From NCBI GenBank assembly GCA_949291445.1, contig CASEVT010000058.1, forward strand, positions 1 through 52,438: a stretch of 52,438 nt of DNA, in the 5' to 3' direction. The notes under the pieces were generated by a model. That model was not told the DNA's origin and did not search any database. It saw nothing but the letters and a program-made list of their open reading frames with translations. The translations under genes were made by a program, and so were the position numbers. The stretch comes from an uncultured bacterium (GTDB taxonomy: Bacteria; Cyanobacteriota; Vampirovibrionia; Gastranaerophilales; Gastranaerophilaceae). This document shows positions 11,943 through 41,506 of this stretch, one piece after another (within the stretch, counting starts at the first letter, position 1; each line of letters starts with the position of its first letter).

Positions 11943-12497
11943 TTAGATTTCGTCTTCTTTGGGATAAAGGTTGTCAATAAGGCTTGACGGTTCGTCATTC
12001 GAAGCATTCTCATCACCATAAAAAACAGTCATACTGCTTGGTTTAAATGATTTATATTCGGTTGTGAGGCGTTCTTCCTCAGCTTTCAAGCTAAACGCAC
12101 GAATTTCTGCATCAGTAACTCTACCGTCGTTGTTTTGATCAATCTTATCAAAGTAATTCAAAACAGTATTCATAAGACTGCTGTTACCCATAGCACCACT
12201 AGAGCAGAGTTGAACTATTTCCTGATAAGAAAGTCCTTGTTGTTGCAATTTTGAAGCCAAATCATTTACATCATTTGCATTAATTGTTCCGTCACCATCT
12301 TTATCCAATGCAGAGAAATTAGAAGTAAGATATTGCGCGAAAGAATTGTTGTATCCAATTTGTTGTAAAACCTCAGTAGAAGGATTGGTCAAGTCTTCAA
12401 AGCTCAATGAGCCGCTATTTTTTGAAAGTATTGCATACGTATTGGTAAGTCCGTATATAGCAGTATTAAAAAGACCGGTTCCATTGTAAACGCTCAT
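11943..12497 (-). CDS. EF-hand calcium-binding protein
   Basis: This is a 184-residue protein with two canonical EF-hand loops, DKDGDGTINANDV and DQNNDGRVTDAEI, about 55 residues apart. Both have Asp/Asn at the calcium-ligand positions and the central Gly. No signal peptide or membrane segment is seen, so it is probably cytosolic or exported by a route that leaves no N-terminal signal. The frame opens at 12524, but AAGGAG lies 7 bases before the ATG at 12497, which I take as the start. The C-terminus is acidic and disordered. The role is unknown; a calcium buffer, a sensor or a surface-associated protein are all possible. Confidence 0.75.
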   Translation of the reverse strand: MSVYNGTGLFNTAIYGLTNTYAILSKNSGSLSFEDLTNPSTEVLQQIGYNNSFAQYLTSNFSALDKDGDGTINANDVNDLASKLQQQGLSYQEIVQLCSSGAMGNSSLMNTVLNYFDKIDQNNDGRVTDAEIRAFSLKAEEERLTTEYKSFKPSSMTVFYGDENASNDEPSSLIDNLYPKEDEI

Positions 12498-12576
12498 AAA
12501 CAGCTCCTTTCTGTAGTAGGACATGATTAGTTTAATAATTTTTCAACAAAAGTAAACCGTTTATTTAATGTATATT

Positions 12577-12605
12577 CAAAAGGTCCTGTTAAACAGGACC
12601 TTTCA
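12577..12605 (-). terminator. Intrinsic terminator after the cysteine-rich gene
   Basis: A near-perfect palindrome (AAAGGTCCTGTT with AACAGGACCTTT) sits 12 bases past the stop of the 12618 gene on the minus strand, with a short T tail. It separates that gene from the EF-hand gene. Confidence 0.65.
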
Positions 12606-12617
12606 GACTGAAAATTA

Positions 12618-13139
12618 TTATTTACAAGGACATTCAACCTTAACTTCTTTGCATTTATCGTCTTTGATTTTTTTAAACTGTTTTTTCTGGCAATCATTGA
12701 GGATACACTTAAAGTTTTCCTTATGAGATTTTTTCATTTCCTTAATTTGTTTTTTCAAAGCTCTGACTTTTTTCTTTTGAGATTTAATGTCGGATGAGCA
12801 GGCATTAGAGCATTCCATCTGGTAAAGCCGGCATTTTTCTTCTTTGTAACATTTTTTAAGCGGATAAAAATCAGTAAAGAATTTTTCATCTATACATTTA
12901 GCCTGCTGGCATTGTGCCTCTGTCAGACAGAGTTGTTTGTAAATAGCCATTCTTTTGTTCCAAAATTTTTCTTTCATAGTAGATTCATCTTCGATAGCAC
13001 AAGGCGGCTCACAAGTTTGTTGTTGAGCACAAGGTTGATTTAACGGGCAGCTTACTTGCACATAATTTGAAGGTTGAGCACAAACACTCATAACAGAACA
13101 AACAACCGCCCCCAAGAATGTAACCGCAAATTTTTTCAT
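12618..13139 (-). CDS. Exported cysteine-rich Spy/CpxP-like (LTXXQ) protein
   Basis: This is a 173-residue protein. Residues 1-21 are a signal peptide (basic MKK, hydrophobic core, cleavage near VCA-Q). The mature part contains about sixteen cysteines. It has two LTxxQ-like motifs, LTEAQCQQAK and LNDCQKKQFKKI, placed as in the helical hairpin of the periplasmic chaperones Spy and CpxP. The stretch between them is strongly basic. In the known family these motifs are present but cysteines are scarce, so the cysteine load is unusual and suggests disulfide cross-linking or metal binding outside the cytoplasm (inference). GGAG lies 7 bases before the ATG at 13139; the longer frame to 13211 has no support. 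Confidence 0.7.
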   Translation of the reverse strand: MKKFAVTFLGAVVCSVMSVCAQPSNYVQVSCPLNQPCAQQQTCEPPCAIEDESTMKEKFWNKRMAIYKQLCLTEAQCQQAKCIDEKFFTDFYPLKKCYKEEKCRLYQMECSNACSSDIKSQKKKVRALKKQIKEMKKSHKENFKCILNDCQKKQFKKIKDDKCKEVKVECPCK

Positions 13140-13340
13140 ATAATTACTCCTTTTGCTCCAATTTAAATACAAATACATTATAAAGATTAGATTTAAGAAT
13201 TTTATGCCCAATGGACTATGCCAACGGAGCTATTTCTTATTAAGAAGTATTAAAACAACTAAAATAAAAACAAAAATTTAGCAATTTTTTATATTTAACT
13301 TACTTTATTAGACTAAGGGGAAGAACTGTAAGACAAACGA

Positions 13341-14294
13341 ATGGGAATATTAAACACACTCTCGGAGATTGCAAAAAATAAAAGCAAATTTGACCAATAC
13401 GAAGAAACACAAAATGACACAAAACTCCAAAGAGACGAACTAAACCGACGCAGAGAACATACACAACAAGAAATAAAAGCAGCTAAAGAACTGGGCGAAA
13501 CAATCATAGATGTTGTAGATATAATGGATCAACACTCTGAAGACATCGCAGAAAATGTAGAAACGGTTACAGAACCGCTAATCGGGCTTTCGCCTATTCT
13601 GGGATTTTTGCTTTCGGGCTTTTTGAGCAAAGAATTTATCGGAAAGCCGTCAGTGAGTAGACAGAGCAAGATTCATGAACAGTTTGTCAACTCAGAAGAA
13701 GTAAAAAATCTTGTTGACGAAATTCAAAAAGCACAAAAACAAGAAATCCCCAAAGGTCTCAGCAATGAAGAACGAATAAAATTTATCAACAATCAGACTA
13801 AAGGCTATATTCCCTTCAGTAGTTATAGTGTTACAAGAAAAAATGAAATTAATCGTTTAAAGAAAGTATTACCTGAATTAGGAGAAAAAGCGGAAGTATT
13901 AAATAAAAAATACAAAAAACTGATTGCACCTGAACTAAGAAAAGTCAAAATAGCAGTCGGAATTCCTATTTTTACAGCAATTGCGTCTTTTGTTGCAGCA
14001 AATATTTATTCAACAAAATTGCAAGTCCAAAGTTCACGTGTAGCAAGATACCAAGCAAGAAAAGTTCTTGAAGACCCCAAATATTTTGTAAAATACACGC
14101 CTGAACAAATCGCCCAGGCAAAAAAAATCCTTGAAAATGATCCTGAATATAAAAAATCCAAGAAAAAACTGCACACAGACAAATTAAAAGGCGGAATTAT
14201 AAAGGGATTAATAAGCATAATTCGTGATAATAAAGAATACAAAAACTGGAAAAAACCGATAAAGATGATTCAAAAAAAGTTACGAGGGAACTGA
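13341..14294 (+). CDS. N-terminal part of a frameshifted three-repeat membrane protein
   Basis: This is a 317-residue frame. Residues 1-50 are charged and coiled. Residues ~80-105 are a hydrophobic segment (PLIGLSPILGFLLSGFLS) after an acidic amphipathic helix. Residues ~205-225 are a second membrane segment (IPIFTAIASFVAANIYS). The signature SSRVARYQARK...DPKYFVKYTPE follows and returns twice in the next frame. It stops at 14294 just after an A7 tract (14272-14278). The coding sense continues in another frame (VTRELTPEEIK) straight into the 14390 gene. I therefore read 13341-17101 as one gene of about 1250 codons broken by a frameshift. The ATG at 13341 has no well-placed ribosome binding site. 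No family is recognised. Confidence 0.65.
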   Translation: MGILNTLSEIAKNKSKFDQYEETQNDTKLQRDELNRRREHTQQEIKAAKELGETIIDVVDIMDQHSEDIAENVETVTEPLIGLSPILGFLLSGFLSKEFIGKPSVSRQSKIHEQFVNSEEVKNLVDEIQKAQKQEIPKGLSNEERIKFINNQTKGYIPFSSYSVTRKNEINRLKKVLPELGEKAEVLNKKYKKLIAPELRKVKIAVGIPIFTAIASFVAANIYSTKLQVQSSRVARYQARKVLEDPKYFVKYTPEQIAQAKKILENDPEYKKSKKKLHTDKLKGGIIKGLISIIRDNKEYKNWKKPIKMIQKKLRGN

Positions 14295-14389
14295 CTCCAG
14301 AAGAAATTAAAAATGCTATTAAAGACAAGGAAGTTATTCAACGGGTTGTAAAAAATATTAACAACCAAGCTGAAGTCTACTCAGAAAAC

Positions 14390-17101
14390 ATGGAAGTTGC
14401 AGCGAATGTTATAATCGGAACCACACCTTGGCTTGGACTGGGAATCGGAGCATTAGTTTCAAATATAATGAACCGAATGAAAATTATACCGAATTTTGTA
14501 AATAAAATTGTCCAAACATATGGCAGTGAAGAATCCAAGGCTGCTTATGCAGAAATGATTAAAAAAGGCGAAGGAAAACCGGGTTACAATTCTGCTCGTA
14601 GCAATTTCATCTCTCAATTTTTATATTTAGACAAATTAAACGAAAAAAATGCAAAAACAGCAACGGAATTAGAAAAGAATATCAAGCAGGCAAAAAAAGT
14701 ATTTGCCACGGCGATGACAATGAAAAGGTCAAGACAATTTGTCTTCGGGCTCATCGGTGGAACGATTACATCTTTGGTTGGAAGCCTTATCGCCTTAAAA
14801 CTACAAAAAGCATCATCACGAGCCGGAAGATTTATCGCAAAACGAGAGATGGAACAAGATCCGAAAAATTTCATCGGTTATACAGAAGAAGATTACGCAG
14901 AAGTAAAAGATATTAAAGCACCAAAACCGACATTAGGTAAAAAAATAAAAGATTACGCACTCTTTCTTCCGAACGTAATCAAAAACTATATCGACTATCA
15001 AAAATACAAAAGAACAACAATGAAACAAGATAAAATGCTCAAAGAAGAGCTGACCAAGACCGAAGTAACACCCGAACAACTCAAAGATGCAAAGAATTTA
15101 CAAAGAAAAATTTTCAATACATTTGAAAAAGTTGACGACAAATCCCAAGAATACTCCGAATCAACAGAAGCAGCCATAGAAATAGCTCAACCATTCGTTC
15201 TTGGTATGGGAATGCTTGCAGTTGCCTCACCGTTACTCTACGGAGGTTATCTGGCATACAAAGGCAAACTCAATGCAAAATCAATTATTAATAAAATACT
15301 GACCTTGCTTTCAACCAGCAGTAAAATTACTGAATCAAAGTATTTCAAAAAATATCTTAATGAAATTGCGGAACAAATTCCATACAAAGTCCAAAATAAT
15401 ACCCCATCATCAAAAATTTTGTCCAAAATTCTCAACGGAATTGATCTCCAAAAAACTCCGCTGCCGGAAATAATCCAAAAATTGTCAAAAAATTCATACG
15501 AGACAATGAAAAACTTCTCAAACCTCAGTCCGACAGAACAAAGACAAATTTTGTGGGATTTAGAAAAATTGTTACCGCAGAATAGTAAACTAAAGAACAT
15601 CACTCAAACATTGCAAAATATGAATAATGAAAATCGCAATTTTGTATTCTCTGCATTCATGAATCCACAAACAATAGGAAAATCCATATCCAAAATGCCA
15701 AAAGATGAATATATGGAACTAAAATACCAATTAAAAACAATCTTCAAAGAAAATTCAGATACTCCGAACTTATTTGAAACGGTTTTGGACTTGCCGCAAG
15801 AGGCATTCGGAAAATTTGTCGACCTTTTGTTGAACAAAGAAACCATAACAAACCTTTCAAAATTACCCAAGTCCGAATTTGATGCACATATAAACAAAAT
15901 CACTGAACCAATGTTGAAACATTGCAAAGAAAATTACGATTTACTCTCCGCTTCAGCAAACTACGGTTCCTTTGGCGAAAATAACCTAAAAAAAATAGAA
16001 CACTATAAAATTATAGGTAAATTATTTAGCGCAATAAAATTAGTAGATCAAAATGACTTTAAACTTGTAAATCAATTCCTCGAAAACAGAATCGACTTTC
16101 TAAAAAATATTTCGAAAATCAATGATTCAGACTTCGAAAGAATAAAAAATTATCTCCTGTCCGTAAGTCAAATGCTACAAATACCAAGCGAAATATCGCA
16201 AAAAATAGCAACCAGCACAAAAACTGACTGGCAAAATTATACGAATAAATTCTTAGCAATCACCGACAAAATTAAAGAAGCAAAAGAAATTAAAACTGAA
16301 CAGTTTGAAAAAGAGCTTTTACCGCTAATTAAACAACAATTTGCAGAACTAAAAATTGAAGGCTTTGAAAATATAAGCACGAAAGAAGAATTCTTAAGTG
16401 CTGCAGAGCTTTTACTAAAAAATGGTCTAAATATAGCAAAAGAAAAGAAAATACCGGAAATTGTAACAAATTATCTTGAAAAAAACAGCAGAAGAATTAT
16501 TAGCAATCCTAAAAACATAATAGATGATATTAAAAACATGAAAGTTAAGGATTTATTTGAATATCTAGAATCAAAAATCAATGCCCAAAGTGATACGGAA
16601 ATTAACAAAATGTTGCAAAGACTGGAATATAACAACATGGTTGCATACAAACTAAAGACCAGCACAATGGACAAAGCATATTTGCTCGATTGCATAAACA
16701 AACTTAAAATTATTTCAGAAAAACTGCCGGAAAAAGAGTTTAAAACAATTCTAAGTTCAATGCTAAAAGAATTCAACGAACATCCTGATGAATTTCTAGC
16801 TTATATCAGAACCGGCAAAATTTTGAACATCTATCAAACTCCATCGCTTCAAAAAGCTGCATTAGCAGCAGGCATAAGCTGGACAGTTTTGAACGTAATT
16901 ATAACTTACACAATCGAAGCAATTCTTGCGGACATTCAACTAAAAGCCGGAAGATTAGGGGTAATGAAAGCATTAGATTCTCTGGATGATCCGGCATATT
17001 ACGCAAATATTGAAAATATAACCGATACAGATATAAAGCCGGCTCAACCTATAAAAGCCCAAACCGATTCCAACAGTGTTTGGAGCAAATTTTTCAAATA
17101 G
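14390..17101 (+). CDS. C-terminal part of the same three-repeat membrane protein
   Basis: This is a 903-residue frame whose first ATG (14390) has no ribosome binding site. The frame is open upstream to 14234 and reads as good protein there, so it is the continuation of the 13341 frame. It holds repeat 2 (TPWLGLGIGALVSNIM; FGLIGGTITSLVGSLIAL; SSRAGRFIAKRE...DPKNFIGYTEED). It also holds repeat 3 (FVLGMGMLAVASPLLYGGYLAY ... LNVIITYTIEAILADIQL; KAGRLGVMKALD...DPAYYAN). The third repeat carries an insertion of about 550 residues, all helical, charged and without cysteine, between its two membrane segments. The function is unknown. The architecture suggests a large membrane-anchored scaffold with a long internal or external helical arm. 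The C-terminus ends in a short hydrophilic tail. Confidence 0.7.
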   Translation: MEVAANVIIGTTPWLGLGIGALVSNIMNRMKIIPNFVNKIVQTYGSEESKAAYAEMIKKGEGKPGYNSARSNFISQFLYLDKLNEKNAKTATELEKNIKQAKKVFATAMTMKRSRQFVFGLIGGTITSLVGSLIALKLQKASSRAGRFIAKREMEQDPKNFIGYTEEDYAEVKDIKAPKPTLGKKIKDYALFLPNVIKNYIDYQKYKRTTMKQDKMLKEELTKTEVTPEQLKDAKNLQRKIFNTFEKVDDKSQEYSESTEAAIEIAQPFVLGMGMLAVASPLLYGGYLAYKGKLNAKSIINKILTLLSTSSKITESKYFKKYLNEIAEQIPYKVQNNTPSSKILSKILNGIDLQKTPLPEIIQKLSKNSYETMKNFSNLSPTEQRQILWDLEKLLPQNSKLKNITQTLQNMNNENRNFVFSAFMNPQTIGKSISKMPKDEYMELKYQLKTIFKENSDTPNLFETVLDLPQEAFGKFVDLLLNKETITNLSKLPKSEFDAHINKITEPMLKHCKENYDLLSASANYGSFGENNLKKIEHYKIIGKLFSAIKLVDQNDFKLVNQFLENRIDFLKNISKINDSDFERIKNYLLSVSQMLQIPSEISQKIATSTKTDWQNYTNKFLAITDKIKEAKEIKTEQFEKELLPLIKQQFAELKIEGFENISTKEEFLSAAELLLKNGLNIAKEKKIPEIVTNYLEKNSRRIISNPKNIIDDIKNMKVKDLFEYLESKINAQSDTEINKMLQRLEYNNMVAYKLKTSTMDKAYLLDCINKLKIISEKLPEKEFKTILSSMLKEFNEHPDEFLAYIRTGKILNIYQTPSLQKAALAAGISWTVLNVIITYTIEAILADIQLKAGRLGVMKALDSLDDPAYYANIENITDTDIKPAQPIKAQTDSNSVWSKFFK

Positions 17102-17119
17102 ACTACAGAAGTTTTAAAA

Positions 17120-18160
17120 CTATTTTTCCAAGTCCAAAAGTTCCCTATAAAGCTCAATTTGCTTATCAGACAGATTCTTAGGAATATTAATACTTATCTT
17201 TACATTCAAATTACCGAAACCGCCGGATTTTTTTGGTAATCCAAGCTCCTTCAAACGCAGCTTTGCACCACAAGAAGTTTTTGGCGGAATTTTTATATTA
17301 ATGTTGCCATGAAGAGTTGCAATCTCTTTTTTCGTACCAATTACCGCCTCGGCAGGTGTAATTTCAGCCGTCATTGTAAGATCGGAACCCGAAATTTCAT
17401 AATCTTTATCCTTAAACTTAACAATAAGATACAAATCGCCTCTTTGCCCCTTAGTAGTAGTTTTGCCTTCACCCTTAAGTCGAATCTTTTGTCCTTCCTT
17501 AACTTCAGAAGGGATTTTAACACTCAAAGACTTTGTTTGGCTAACAATACCAGCCCCGCCGCAATTGTAGCAAACAGAGCCAACACCATGACATTTAGGG
17601 CACTTTTCAATTGTATTAACCTTCACTGTCACAGGCTTTTGATTATAGATGTCTTTTGCGCTAACATACAAATCTTGTGTTATATCCAAATCAAGTTTTT
17701 CGTTTTTTTTAGCCGATTGTTTCCGTGAGAACCCGCCGGCAAAATCATCATAAAACGACTCTCTGGAACGTGTTCTGCCGGTACCCTGAGCAGATTGTGA
17801 AGCGAATCCACCAAATATAGTATTAAAGAAATCAGAAAATCCGCCCAAATCTTCAAAACCTGAATATCCGGCACCGGAACCGCCGCCAAAATCAAAGTGG
17901 ATATTTTCATACCCGGGGGGCGGCGTAAAATTAGAACCTGCCTGCCAATTAGAACCAAGACTGTCATATCTTTGTCGTTTTTCTTTATCAGAAAGTACCT
18001 CAAATGCCTCATTTATATCCTTGAATTTTGCAGAAGCTTCAGGCGTTTTGTTCACGTCAGGATGGTATTTTTTTGCCAATTTTCGGTATGCAGACTTTAT
18101 CTCTGCCTCGGTTGCACTGCGTTTTACGCCTAATATCTCATAATAATCTTTATATTCCAT
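17120..18160 (-). CDS. DnaJ-family co-chaperone with a half-size zinc domain
   Basis: This Hsp40 stimulates DnaK ATPase. The J domain spans residues 1-70 with HPD at 33-35. A Gly/Phe-rich linker (70-150) follows. Only two CxxCxGxG units are present (CPKCHGVG and CYNCGGAG) where DnaJ has four; the two C-terminal beta domains are normal ([20 protein letters not shown]). At 346 residues it is between CbpA and DnaJ in length. Two units cannot make the two zinc centres of DnaJ but could bind one zinc. The start has GGAG 8 bases upstream. It is convergent with the large membrane gene, with 18 bases between the stops. No dnaK or grpE is adjacent, so this is probably an accessory J protein. Confidence 0.88.
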
Positions 18161-18303
18161 TTTTACATCTCCGAAGAGTTTTTCATCTTATATCTTTATA
18201 TTAATACAAAATCTGCACTAATTAGTTGATTTTAATTATTTATTAATAAATTATTCTTTATTTTAGCCGTAATATAAAGTAGAAGTTATAATAAAATAAA
18301 GTC

Positions 18304-20175
18304 ATGAAAAAAATTATAGCTAATTTATTAATTCTAATGTTTATACTTGCGGGCAACAGTGGAGCCTTAGTTTTTGCTGCAATAACAGGTAACAATAACA
18401 CAAACCAAAACGGCAGCAATAATAAATTAGCAAACCAACCGCCGGTTGAAGGTATCCTGAAACAAGCGTCAATTAAAATAGATGATATAGACCCCAATGC
18501 CGGTCTAAATTTGAAAGGCAGTTTCTACCCCGGCGGACGCGGAAATAATCAACTAATAATCTATACCCCCAAAAACGGTCTAAGAACAGGTACAAATGAA
18601 TTCGGTGCAGAAGCAATCGTCATAAATAACACAGTCGTGCAACTAAGCGGAGCTGACACAATAATACCGCAAAATGGTTTCATAATTAGCGGTCATGGTA
18701 AAGCAAAAACATGGATCAACCAAAACCTTACCGTTGGAACAAAAGCTTATATCGATAAAAAAACAAAAACACTCAACGTCTATCTTACAAACGAAAGTTT
18801 TCTCTATGCTACACAAGAAATTATAAAAGAAGTAGACAAGATGATGAGATACTATAGAGATAACGATATTTATTACAATGGAAAAACATCTCAAAGTTAT
18901 GTAGATAAAGCTATTGACAACCTGAAAAAAGCCCAGAAACGTCCTGATGATACGCAAAAATATTCAGCAGCAGCAATAGCAAACGCAAATAAAGCTATGC
19001 AACATGCTCTACCGTATTATAAAGATGAATTTAAAGGCGTATGGGTTCGTCCAAAAGAAACAAATCCCGATGATATAATCAAAACGATTGAAAAAATAAG
19101 AAGCTACGGCATAGAAAACATTTTTTTAGAAACATATTTTCAGGGAAAAACCATATACCCGAGCGCCGTACTCGCAAGATACAATGTTCAGTCGCAACGA
19201 AATGAATTTAAAAATTTTGACCCGTTAAAAATATGGATAGATGAAGCACATAAAAGAGGAATAAAAGTTCATATATGGTTTGAAACATTCTATGCCGGCA
19301 ACGAAAACCCGATGAACAACCCCAAGAACGTACTCAGCGTCTATCCCAAATGGGGGAACGTAACTAAAGCACAATATGATTCAGCAATGCCGGTTGCATC
19401 ACTATCCGAACATAACGGCTATTTTCTGGATCCTGCAAACCCCGAAGTTCAACAGTACTTGCTTTCACTGATTGAAGAAATAATTGTAAATTACCACCCA
19501 GATGGCATAAATCTCGATTACATAAGATATCCTCAAGCAATTAGCGCAAAATTCACAGGATACGATATGACAAACTGGGGCTACACTAAATATGCAAGAG
19601 AAGAATTTGAAAATGCAACTGGGGTTGACCCTGTAGAAATAAAATATGGTACACCGCTTTGGGATACCTGGGCAAAATATAGACAAGATAAGATAACGAG
19701 TTTTGTATTTAAAACAAAAAAACTCACATCAAAACATCAAATACTGTTAACAACAGTAATCTTTCCGGATAGACAAAAAAGTCTTGAAGTAAAAATGCAA
19801 GATTGGAAAACTTGGTCACAAAACAACTATGTAGACGGATTTACCCCGCTAATCCTGACCTGTGACAGAGATACGGCTGACTTTTTAATCGATGATATAA
19901 GAAGTAACTCCTCACCAAAAACGAAAATTTATCCCGGACTTTTTGTAGCGTTTATGAACGGTAATCCTGATGATTTGTTAAGACAAGTTCATCAAAGCAG
20001 AAAATTAAAAACCGCAGGTGTAATAATGTTTGATTACGCACACTTAAACCCCAAATACACAGATGTTCTTCTGACAAGCGCATTCAAACCGGTTAAAGCA
20101 AAACCAATCGAACCGCCGAATTACTTACCTGACAGAAAAATAAAGAAGAAAAAACATTTCTTCTGGCAAAAATAA
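18304..20175 (+). CDS. Secreted glycosyl hydrolase-like protein of the GHL10 (DUF187) family
   Basis: This is a 623-residue exported protein. Residues 1-26 are a signal peptide. Residues ~50-160 form a beta-rich domain seen in cyanobacterial relatives (LIIYTPKNGLRTGTNEFGAEAIVI). A helical linker follows (FIVAR-like, KMMRYYRDN to NKAMQHALPYY). From about residue 240 the GHL10 TIM barrel begins (FKGVWVRPKETNPDDI, GIKVHIWFETFYAG, HPDGINLDYIRYP, WDTWAKYRQDKITSFV). The usual enzyme activity is unproven; a role on peptidoglycan or another surface glycan is likely. A TATAAT at 18287-18292 lies only 11 bases before the ATG and there is no ribosome binding site, so the mRNA may have almost no leader. 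The C-terminus is basic (KIKKKKHFFWQK). Confidence 0.85.
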   Translation: MKKIIANLLILMFILAGNSGALVFAAITGNNNTNQNGSNNKLANQPPVEGILKQASIKIDDIDPNAGLNLKGSFYPGGRGNNQLIIYTPKNGLRTGTNEFGAEAIVINNTVVQLSGADTIIPQNGFIISGHGKAKTWINQNLTVGTKAYIDKKTKTLNVYLTNESFLYATQEIIKEVDKMMRYYRDNDIYYNGKTSQSYVDKAIDNLKKAQKRPDDTQKYSAAAIANANKAMQHALPYYKDEFKGVWVRPKETNPDDIIKTIEKIRSYGIENIFLETYFQGKTIYPSAVLARYNVQSQRNEFKNFDPLKIWIDEAHKRGIKVHIWFETFYAGNENPMNNPKNVLSVYPKWGNVTKAQYDSAMPVASLSEHNGYFLDPANPEVQQYLLSLIEEIIVNYHPDGINLDYIRYPQAISAKFTGYDMTNWGYTKYAREEFENATGVDPVEIKYGTPLWDTWAKYRQDKITSFVFKTKKLTSKHQILLTTVIFPDRQKSLEVKMQDWKTWSQNNYVDGFTPLILTCDRDTADFLIDDIRSNSSPKTKIYPGLFVAFMNGNPDDLLRQVHQSRKLKTAGVIMFDYAHLNPKYTDVLLTSAFKPVKAKPIEPPNYLPDRKIKKKKHFFWQK

Positions 20176-20207
20176 ACAGATCAAAAATAATCTCAACACC
20201 AATCATT

Positions 20208-20456
20208 TTATTCCTGTATTGAATAATCTATCTCCAGCTGGCTTAAGATCGCATCTAAAGGGATTTGCAGTCCACGAGCATACTTTATAAGCGTACAAAA
20301 TTTTGTATCAACCAGACCGTTCTCAATTCTGCTAACCGTAGCCGTCGTCAGGTCATTTTCATAGGCAAACGAATTCAATGAGACTCCTTTGGATTCTCGC
20401 AGAGTCTTCAAATACCTTCCTAGCTTTTTCGTTAACATTTTGTCGTATTGTTCCAT
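20208..20456 (-). CDS. XRE-type helix-turn-helix regulator
   Basis: This is an 82-residue protein that is almost entirely one Cro/CI-type domain. It reads LGRYLKTLRESKGVSLNSFAYENDLTTATVSRIENG, with the recognition helix at TTATVSRIENG, followed by KFCTLIKYARGLQIPLDAIL. The frame opens at 20489. I prefer the ATG at 20456 because the earlier codons lie inside a dyad that looks like the operator; the next ATG at 20438 is also possible. There is no partner toxin or metabolic domain. It is convergent with the GHL10 gene (32 bases apart) and divergent from recA. It probably represses itself. Confidence 0.75.
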   Translation of the reverse strand: MEQYDKMLTKKLGRYLKTLRESKGVSLNSFAYENDLTTATVSRIENGLVDTKFCTLIKYARGLQIPLDAILSQLEIDYSIQE

Positions 20457-20470
20457 ATATGCAATTATAT

Positions 20471-20507
20471 TGGTTACAATAATACACATATTACATAAAT
20501 GTAACCA
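20471..20507. promoter_or_regulatory. Nested dyad, likely operator of the XRE regulator
   Basis: A perfect 8-bp inverted repeat, TGGTTACA (20471-20478) and TGTAACCA (20500-20507), is separated by 21 bases. It encloses half of a second dyad, TTACAT-AA-ATGTAA (20491-20504). It lies just upstream of the XRE gene start, where an autorepressor would bind. Confidence 0.45.
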
Positions 20508-20600
20508 GAGTTCATAACAAGGAAAATTATTAACAATAATACGAAGAAAGAATAAACCTAATACACAGCGATTATGTAAATAAAAATTTAAGCAAAGGTA

Positions 20601-20629
20601 TTGAATAAAGGTAAAATGTAGGGTAGAAT
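20601..20629 (+). promoter_or_regulatory. Sigma-70-type promoter for recA
   Basis: TTGAAT at 20601-20606 and TAGAAT at 20624-20629 are spaced by 17 bases, placing the transcript start about 22 bases before the recA start. I saw no clear LexA box (GAAC-N4-GTTC or CTG-N10-CAG) over it. Confidence 0.65.
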
Positions 20630-20657
20630 CGAATTATTATTGTAATGGAGAAGATAG

Positions 20658-21680
20658 ATGGCAGTAAAAGAAAAAGATACTCCGGATATATCCGAAGAAA
20701 GAAATAAAGCACTAAAACTTGCAATAGAGAAGATTGAAAAGGATTTTGGAAAAGGCTCAATAATGAAATTGGGTGATAAGACCGCCGTTTCAGTAGAGGC
20801 TATCCCGACAGGTGCATTGTCATTAGATATAGCACTTGGCATAGGTGGTGTTCCCAGAGGCAGAGTGATAGAAGTATACGGACCTGAAGCTAGCGGCAAA
20901 ACTACACTTGCACAACACATTGTTGCAGAATGTCAGAAAAAAGGCGGTATTGCTGCATTCATTGATGCTGAACATGCTCTTGATCCTGAATATGCCCAAA
21001 ATCTTGGCGTAAACGTTGATGAATTACTAATATCACAGCCCGACACAGGTGAACAAGCGCTTGAAATTGCAGAAGAACTTGTTCGCTCTTCTGCCGTAGA
21101 TATTGTGGTCATTGACTCGGTTGCCGCATTGGTTCCGAAAGCTGAAATTGAAGGTGCAATGGAAGACCAACAAATGGGGCTGCAAGCCAGACTTATGAGT
21201 AAGGCTCTTAGAAAATTAACAGGTATTGTAGGTAAAACTAATACGACCGTTATTTTTATTAACCAGCTGCGTCAAAAAATAGGTGTTATGTATGGTAGTC
21301 CTGAAACAACCACCGGTGGTAACGCATTAAAATACTACTCAAGTGTAAGACTCGATATAAGACGATGCGATACTATTAAAAAAGATGACAAAGATATCGG
21401 CAACCGCGTTAGAGTTAAGGTTGTAAAAAATAAAGTTGCGCCACCATTTAAACAAGCAGAATTCGACATTATTTTTGGTAAAGGAATATGCAAACTCGGT
21501 TGTATTCTTGATGTTGCAGTAAACTTTGATATTGTAAAAAAAGCAGGTGCATGGTTTAGCTACAACGATGAAAAACTGGGTCAGGGCAGAGAAAAAGCTA
21601 AAGAATTCTTTGAACAACACCCGGAAGTCCTTCAAGAAGTAGAAGCAAAAGTCAGAGAAAAGCTTGCAGCAAAAGATTAG
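20658..21680 (+). CDS. recA: Recombinase RecA
   Basis: RecA forms the strand-exchange filament and the SOS co-protease. The 340-residue protein has Walker [10 protein letters not shown] near residues 75-83, Walker [12 protein letters not shown], loop 1 [25 protein letters not shown] and loop 2 [29 protein letters not shown]. All are canonical. The C-terminal tail is less acidic than in E. coli. The ribosome binding site is ATGGAGA, 8 bases before the ATG. It is monocistronic, with its own promoter and a strong terminator. Confidence 0.98.
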
Positions 21681-24800: not shown

Positions 24801-25669
24801 TTATTTTGCTCCTTAGCGGAATCGGAGTGTTTAGTTTTGTCAACCTCATCGACACTTTTCACTGTATCTGAGAACGACTGTTCAACCGCTGCAACTTCTT
24901 CAGAATTCTCATCCGCAAGCGAACTCAAATCAAAAGACCCATCATCAACCGCCGGCTCACAATCCACCTGTGAATCAGGCTCTGTATCAGGAGCTTGGAT
25001 GGCAATTTCGGCTTGGGATTTCGTTTCGAGCTGACTATTTTCTTCCGTTTGAATCTCAACATCTGATTGATTTTCTGCCACGGAAGAGGTTTCATCAATT
25101 ATATCAATTTGCGCATCACCTTCATCTGTGACAACATCAGGTTCAACTTCCTTATCATCAAACGGCTCGAGCTCGACAACATCAGTATAACCCTCGCTCA
25201 ACGGCAATTCTTCTATTTGCTCAACTTGATCAGACAAATCCAACAACAAATTCTCATTAGAATGTTCATCTTGTTGAACACTTTCCCTATCAACAGTATC
25301 AACAGCATTAACAGCATCAACAGCATCAACGGATTCAGCTTCAGTATGAGAAGGATTGTTTTGAGCAGTTAGAATATCATGAGCAGAATCATCAACCTTT
25401 TCAGACAAAAGGGCGGTAATAGTTATCATATCTTCGTCAAGTTCTTCAAACTCATGCCCGCATTTACGACAAATTTTTGCATCAGGTCGGTTAACCTTGT
25501 TACAGGCAGGACAATACTTTATAAGCTGTAGACCACAGCCTTGACAGTATTCTGTTGTTATAAGATTTTTCGTTTTACAGACAGGACAAACGGTCTGCAC
25601 CTTGGTATTACAATACTCACAGCGCAACACGTCATCAGCTATCTCTTTTTTGCACTTAATGCAACGCAT
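21821..25669 (-). CDS. Zinc-ribbon / AAA-type ATPase / TPR protein (STAND-like)
   Basis: This is a 1282-residue protein with four parts. Residues 1-75 carry eight CxxC pairs in tandem zinc ribbons (CIKC, CEYC, CPVC, CQGC, CPAC, CRKC). Residues ~80-390 are acidic and low-complexity, with a short VDAVNAVDTVD mini-repeat. An ATPase domain follows, with P-loop GEEGHGKST near residue 410 and Walker B IITIDDFDMID near 531. From about 870 to the end lie helical TPR-like repeats. This order resembles AAA_16/MalT-type signalling ATPases, but no helix-turn-helix, cyclase or kinase output is visible at either end. The output may be the zinc-ribbon part or protein-protein contacts. It is convergent with recA and follows the ABC permease gene after about 95 bases. 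Confidence 0.7.
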   Translation of the reverse strand: MRCIKCKKEIADDVLRCEYCNTKVQTVCPVCKTKNLITTEYCQGCGLQLIKYCPACNKVNRPDAKICRKCGHEFEELDEDMITITALLSEKVDDSAHDILTAQNNPSHTEAESVDAVDAVNAVDTVDRESVQQDEHSNENLLLDLSDQVEQIEELPLSEGYTDVVELEPFDDKEVEPDVVTDEGDAQIDIIDETSSVAENQSDVEIQTEENSQLETKSQAEIAIQAPDTEPDSQVDCEPAVDDGSFDLSSLADENSEEVAAVEQSFSDTVKSVDEVDKTKHSDSAKEQNKTDSEKITGSSNGDESKKNLQPSLPQSKEKVVPAMELQMNDGDKQDVSKTKIPAKANDTKVISEKDTEVENGADDTGDDDSPVDKAINISTNDQSKCKNVMAEAIRSDDKLIIGLSGEEGHGKSTILKYLFNDLINQNYNWLWGECSANTQISPFGIFQEMLLTFFNCPNYTTMSQEFQLSVETAFKNYFTSFNRQDVTNLFNFLYPTLNAHFEDILINKEVTFNLLEKTLLEISKKSKLIITIDDFDMIDGASYEFLVRFIENENLSPNLKLVISYKDKRIAQGYFYSEKIKENQYQDIHLGKLDNEYIDKLVKLYLNGFNPLPEELFKEICTNSKGSSAYVEQVLILLNENEAFYPEDNEIKYRSTPIELELPKTIFDVITHRLEQLKKNFPMVYKTLCTAAIMGNKFNVQLLEQIMKLNSADFQNILKLLTNSAYITQFNNSLFVFKNTLLWKIIYEKSKQNKDFVTLNERIFDVINTVTLSSNAIKALIAQNLNQKLLALNIWTENTKLCSYLGDEHLWTLSQKQSLKIVQEVTPQNNRIIINNIYERLGKLLYSSKPTEAVEYISYALNQAIKVSNIPKTIELSGYLMKSCSIIGNYYGVIEAVDTILKLIDNPEYKLEAALIKYKKLKALFSIGNSEEIYNLASNEIIPVIEQAISKLIPIKNIPMEIIYETWLETNLIVANALSIQGNNKCFQVLSFIDEIISKNNVDNKNYLNRVALAKALAYSIQGDIKKSEDLLIDISQKTANEIVEPEIISQWNFINILNKLYKRDWANIKEDMYSVVTFANNYNDVLVKNLLKIFLGKVLQEEGNLAKALDIYNEQVTLFAKEKIAIGALLCWYYIAKITLVTDGSDKALDIAQKALEVSKNPKIFNYYFMVMYKKLIAEIFIIKGDLEAAKMYIEKALLIVKNYDMKLHKIMLYQLYAKYLEEMVLRKPKNKNVYAHNAISTYKKAIVMVKELNMPAIEEELQKNFSSFRAFCQLNAIKL

Positions 25670-41169: not shown

Positions 41170-41200
41170 AAAAAAGATAAAAAGATAAAAAGATAAAAAA
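41170..41200 (+). repeat. Short tandem AAAAAGAT repeat in the leader of the DUF2769 gene
   Basis: Three or four tandem copies of an 8-base A-rich unit lie 25-55 bases before the start codon. Such tracts can vary in copy number and change translation or leader structure. Confidence 0.5.
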
Positions 41201-41227
41201 ACAAAAAAGTGAAACAAGGAGAATGAA

Positions 41228-41506
41228 ATGAGTATAGTAGCCAAAACACAAGAAAACTTGAATATGTGCAAATGCATGAGCTGCCCTTCTTATACAACCT
41301 CTTGCAAAATAAAAGAAATGCCCCACAACATTCTTGAAGAACTCAAAGGCATTGAAAACACTGATAATCTTGAGAATCTTTTCTGTGCATACACAAAGAG
41401 CAGATGCATTGATGCGGATAAAGGCTGTTTGTGCTCTCAATGTGAAGTTCATGACAAATATGATTTGGAAGACGGACACTATTGTTTAAGCGATGGCGGG
41501 TATTAA
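41228..41506 (+). CDS. Small cysteine-rich DUF2769-like protein
   Basis: This is a 92-residue cytosolic protein with nine cysteines arranged as MCKCMSCPSYTTSCK ... FCAYTKSRC ... GCLCSQCEVHD ... YYCL-like. The start CxCxxCPSY and the CxCxxC pair fit DUF2769, a small family known mainly from methanogenic archaea and anaerobes and presumed to bind metal or Fe-S. The ribosome binding site AAGGAG is 6 bases before the ATG. It is a single-gene unit. It may have been gained from an anaerobic archaeon, or the family may be wider than I know. Confidence 0.65.
   Translation: MSIVAKTQENLNMCKCMSCPSYTTSCKIKEMPHNILEELKGIENTDNLENLFCAYTKSRCIDADKGCLCSQCEVHDKYDLEDGHYCLSDGGY

Follow-up and report, generated by a model that had tools for sequence, protein, structure and literature searches.

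The gene at 13341-17101 (plus strand) of the window, i.e., of the whole stretch of 52,438 nucleotides analyzed here, is a gene copy that was broken or mis-assembled in an ordinary way, without any special decoding trick. It was probably disrupted by a recent single-base loss-of-function indel in a run of six A residues at 14250-14255, and mutation or consensus error, taken jointly, very probably caused the one-base indel at this site. According to the preferred reading, one base would have been dropped recently from the A6 run of a single ancestral gene. Translation from the ATG at 13341 would consequently end at 14294 and yield a 317-aa N-terminal fragment containing the first repeat unit only, and the remaining approximately 900 codons, which have no recognizable start of their own, would probably be hardly translated. 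We infer that the base is truly missing in the DNA of the organism and that the frameshifted allele is non-functional.

The first open frame, ORF1 (13341-14294, plus strand, 317 aa), represents the N-terminal part of the gene with the first repeat unit and one hydrophobic segment and is closed by a TGA at 14292-14294. The second open frame (14234-17101, plus strand, 955 aa) lies at -1 relative to ORF1, features its first ATG at 14390 and holds the rest of the gene, with a contiguous alignment to the same orthologues that are matched by ORF1. Compared with the two congeners of the window genome (G000), ORF1 aligns to about residues 1-315 of the open frame in G002 (locus L003; 67% identity) and to residues 8-296 of that in G001 (locus L002; 57% identity), and the second frame carries on in both proteins where ORF1 leaves off, with zero residues missing. 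Judged from these alignments, the two frames are two halves of one gene of about 1,250 codons, counting both, and relatives hold both halves in one frame. This agrees with the original prediction, which had described a gene of this size split by a frameshift, a first frame ending at 14294 and a second frame open from 14234. Likewise, the codons of the second frame preceding the ATG (VTRELTPEEIKNAI...QAEVYSENM) had been noted to resemble a later internal repeat, which they do; they are coding, and the alignment to orthologues shows the frame to be truly coding from about 14256. The annotation is hence corrected, and both ORFs are to be read as one disrupted gene and not as two proteins.

Nucleotide alignment to both congeners places the frame change at the A6 run at 14250-14255 (plus strand), where the window features a net loss of one base. 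Between 14103 and 14448, the window and L003 share 77% nucleotide identity with a sole gap of 1 base in this run, and the alignment to L002 likewise puts a one-base gap there; at the same site, G002 has GGAAGAAAACA and G001 has GGAAAAAATCC. Across the junction, the congeners read WKK-TDKDESKKI and WKK-SDVDESKKV. In the window, WKK is followed by TDKDDSKKV in the second frame, matching TDKDESKKI and SDVDESKKV, and the ORF1 residues after about 14255 (PIKMIQKKLRGN, approximately the 12 last codons) are out of frame and match nothing in the relatives. The A7 run at 14272-14278 (plus strand), which had been named in the original prediction, is gap-free in the L003 and L002 alignments, and the frame is not shifted there.

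Even though either half is a long open frame, it is extremely improbable that the locus comprises two genuine genes, each starting on its own or linked by translational coupling. The ATG at 14390-14392 (plus strand), called as the start of the second ORF, sits 95 bases past the ORF1 stop and encodes a conserved internal methionine within SENMEVAANV, corresponding to M335 of the G001 protein. This residue is invariant across 18 aligned orthologues and internal in all of them, and it is not a true start. Upstream of it, a Shine-Dalgarno-like sequence was looked for and is absent, in line with the predicted lack of a ribosome binding site. This is weak evidence, since such a tetramer occurs at only 12 of the 30 starts checked in the window; the ATG of ORF1 at 13341 also does without one. 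At the junction, comparable orthologues are all single-frame except for those broken independently. Homologues that form two genes with starts of their own, which the original prediction had named as counter-evidence to a split gene, were found in none of the lineages surveyed.

Orthologues in related genomes are encoded in one frame and span about 880-1,480 codons. A match to the gene was present in 62 of 288 genomes of the family, and among 383 genomes drawn from the order in a second round, 61 had a strong match, 60 of which reached the N-terminal half. The proposed comparison with homologues showed an uninterrupted junction in 56 of the 60 order-wide copies covering the region, both congeners included (the end of the otherwise intact G002 copy is the contig end and not a stop); the copies of G333 and G371 were inspected individually and are intact. 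The lesions of the four broken copies are all different. The window copy features a one-base shift, G282 (L062) a frameshift approximately 22 codons upstream of the window-equivalent site with an intact WKK motif, G040 (L203) a TAA at codon 49, and G379 (L201) both a TAG at codon 20 and the loss of about 310 internal residues by an out-of-frame deletion. The G040 copy could use a start downstream of the TAA, and loss of function is only putative there. These different and independent disruptions across relatives suggest that an accessory gene was lost recurrently. As nonsense codons do not arise as homopolymer artefacts, the gene seems to have been truly lost more than once, and the distinct lesions in three relatives thus characterize it as accessory, fast-evolving and repeatedly lost. 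The breaks in G000, G282, and G379 are located near protein residues 283-337, a clustering which was seen post hoc and in an A-rich linker. We consider it very unlikely that ending after the first repeat unit serves a function, with an N-terminal form of approximately 290-320 aa being favored in these three lineages, or that low-level slippage at A_AAA_AAG gives some full-length protein. A second copy of the gene was looked for in G000 and none was found. In the GTDB contig scan, no second assembly of the species was found, the single match being the C-terminal half of one relative with 57% identity. The genes present would be reminiscent of gut Gastranaerophilales (Vampirovibrionia).

With regard to evolutionary rates, dN relative to G002 amounts to 0.20-0.31 for the gene versus 0.01-0.06 for four neighbors (the EF-hand protein, DnaJ, GHL10, and the 20658 gene), all dS values being close to or past saturation; the Cys-rich neighbor was left out, as its value derived from a mis-framed stretch. 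Despite the fast evolution of the gene, third codon positions change most, and the gene has therefore been under constraint. Within 11943-21680, flanking genes share 85-98.5% amino-acid identity with G002 versus the 67% of ORF1, and the same two G002 contigs hold conserved counterparts of the genes flanking 13341-17101. Branch-specific amino-acid changes number 99 for the window and 97 for G002, a comparison which would say nothing about a very recent break. Since the window branch is without an excess of such changes, the break is either recent or unreal.

The latter case, a consensus or assembly error, is the main rival to the loss-of-function indel and is regarded as possible, albeit less likely. 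The gene of the organism would then be intact, and the base would have been lost in the A6 run during assembly, e.g., by mixed strains or low coverage. Equal rates on the window and G002 branches would fit such an error, as would the intact gene in both congeners, the draft state of the G000 assembly (134 contigs) and the isolated, single lesion, given that only this one occurs in approximately 1,250 codons and that besides the indel nothing marks the gene as dead. Moreover, homology-confirmed singleton frameshifts are expected to be mostly sequencing errors and not real indels (PMC3711429). Nevertheless, in an assembly check by blastx, which included about 290 kb of G000, 798 kb of G001, and 439 kb of G002 and was counted with overlapping frames removed, the shift at 14250-14255 was the sole one among the 115 kb of G000 coding sequence that was aligned; the comparison assemblies featured one frameshift in 188 kb (G001) and zero in 153 kb (G002) of aligned coding sequence. 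About 405 A/T runs of at least 6 are contained in the aligned G000 coding sequence, and the lack of any other shift at these runs makes a systematic or general homopolymer error unlikely. The assembly is thus unlikely to be generally error-prone, and a single local error is compatible with the data. An error is further opposed by the fact that the same gene was hit by other lesion types in other lineages. With intact homologues and a disabling lesion in the window copy, the gene is a candidate frameshifted pseudogene.

Besides an indel and an assembly error, both of which stay live, programmed or slippage-based expression had been put forward. This option is not supported: an interruption at the window site was sought among the 60 comparable copies and occurs in no relative, and there is no conserved shift site. 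A rescue of the frame, either by -1 ribosomal slippage at 14273-14279 or by polymerase slippage on the A runs, with some full-length protein as a result, is accordingly judged highly improbable. What speaks for it is a dnaX-type heptamer, A_AAA_AAG, at 14273-14279 (plus strand), which lies in the ORF1 frame four codons ahead of the stop. Still, this heptamer is fortuitous. It results when the conserved SKKV codons (TCA AAA AAA GTT) are read out of frame, and the intact G001 gene also contains it off frame; it was therefore not selected as a shift site. In-frame A_AAA_AAG is not rare in G000 either, with 33 occurrences in 88,188 codons of sampled long open frames. The downstream RNA (14280-14360) showed no excess of structure over shuffled sequences (z 0.62), and in the 20 bases upstream of the heptamer no Shine-Dalgarno-like element was seen. 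For polymerase slippage, runs of six to seven A residues are short. In E. coli, A_AAA_AAG is highly shift-prone, which is tied to the sole tRNA-Lys, and in insect endosymbionts genes are rescued by polymerase slippage on long A runs (PMC5009743). A second tRNA-Lys was suggested to pair AAG more tightly and to cut slippage (PMC5009743), and the tRNA-Lys(CUU) encoded in G000 should accordingly bind AAG tightly and lower slipping; tRNA-Lys(UUU) was found in G001 and is absent from the tRNAs found in G000, an incomplete draft. Residual slippage is possible, but a programmed role is not supported.

The encoded protein is an uncharacterized, accessory, repeat-containing protein of this bacterial family, which is probably helical and membrane-associated. 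Pfam and NCBIfam searches yielded no hit above cut-off with the two halves, and among 18 orthologues no Pfam family was common to more than one. A Diphtheria_T match in ORF1 (16.9 bits, cut-off 27) is unmatched in the 18 aligned orthologues and was taken as chance. A profile of the 18 orthologues gave only weak matches to PDB sequences, namely designed coiled coils and DNA polymerase beta, which lie in the C-terminal part of low complexity, and the AlphaFold model of ORF1 alone (mean pLDDT 44.7) was too poor for a fold search. Inspection of the alignments revealed a repeat unit composed of a charged helical stretch ending in (S/A)E..EN.E, a hydrophobic segment, and a KLQ..SSR..R..AK...DPK.F..YT motif. 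Two clear copies come first, with 29% identity to each other, and a degenerate third one (KAGRLGVMKAL..L.DPAYYA) is located close to the C terminus. The hydropathy profile points to a few membrane segments, and a membrane-associated structural or surface role would be a guess. Taken as a whole, the gene points to an unnamed family of membrane-associated repeat proteins of ~900-1,480 aa, which have a patchy distribution in this group, evolve fast and were disrupted repeatedly.

Other repeats were observed elsewhere in the window. At 41171-41207, about 4.6 copies of the 8-bp repeat AAAAAGAT are located just upstream of a likely ribosome binding site and are followed by a 92-aa, Cys-rich ORF (41228-41506, MSIVAKTQENLNMCKCMSCPSY...). 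A changed copy number of this repeat could alter expression of the ORF, and phase variation is possible there. A 9-bp tandem repeat (ATCAACAGC, 4.7 copies, a unit that is a multiple of three) at 25289-25330 lies within a 1,282-aa ORF on the minus strand.

In comparison with known systems, homopolymer phase variation shares with the disrupted gene an indel in a homopolymer within coding sequence, but here the run consists of 6 residues only and is not common to relatives, and the other broken copies differ in site and lesion type. A tandem repeat was looked for in 13341-17101 and none was found; the gene was accordingly rejected as phase-variable. The -1 programmed frameshift of the dnaX type is similar in featuring A_AAA_AAG in the appropriate frame a short way ahead of the ORF1 stop, whereas the site here is unconserved and without a stimulatory structure, tRNA-Lys(CUU) is present, and the ancestral state is a full-length in-frame gene. 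The rescue by polymerase slippage on poly(A) in Buchnera and Blochmannia (PMC5009743) is alike with regard to the A-rich genome and the one-base shift at an A run; in contrast, the A6 run is short, and corrected transcripts would be hypothetical here. The singleton frameshift or hypothetical pseudogene class of GeneTack (PMC3711429, 2013) likewise includes an unconserved frame transition and homology spanning the junction, but here three relatives with lesions elsewhere point to repeated real loss.
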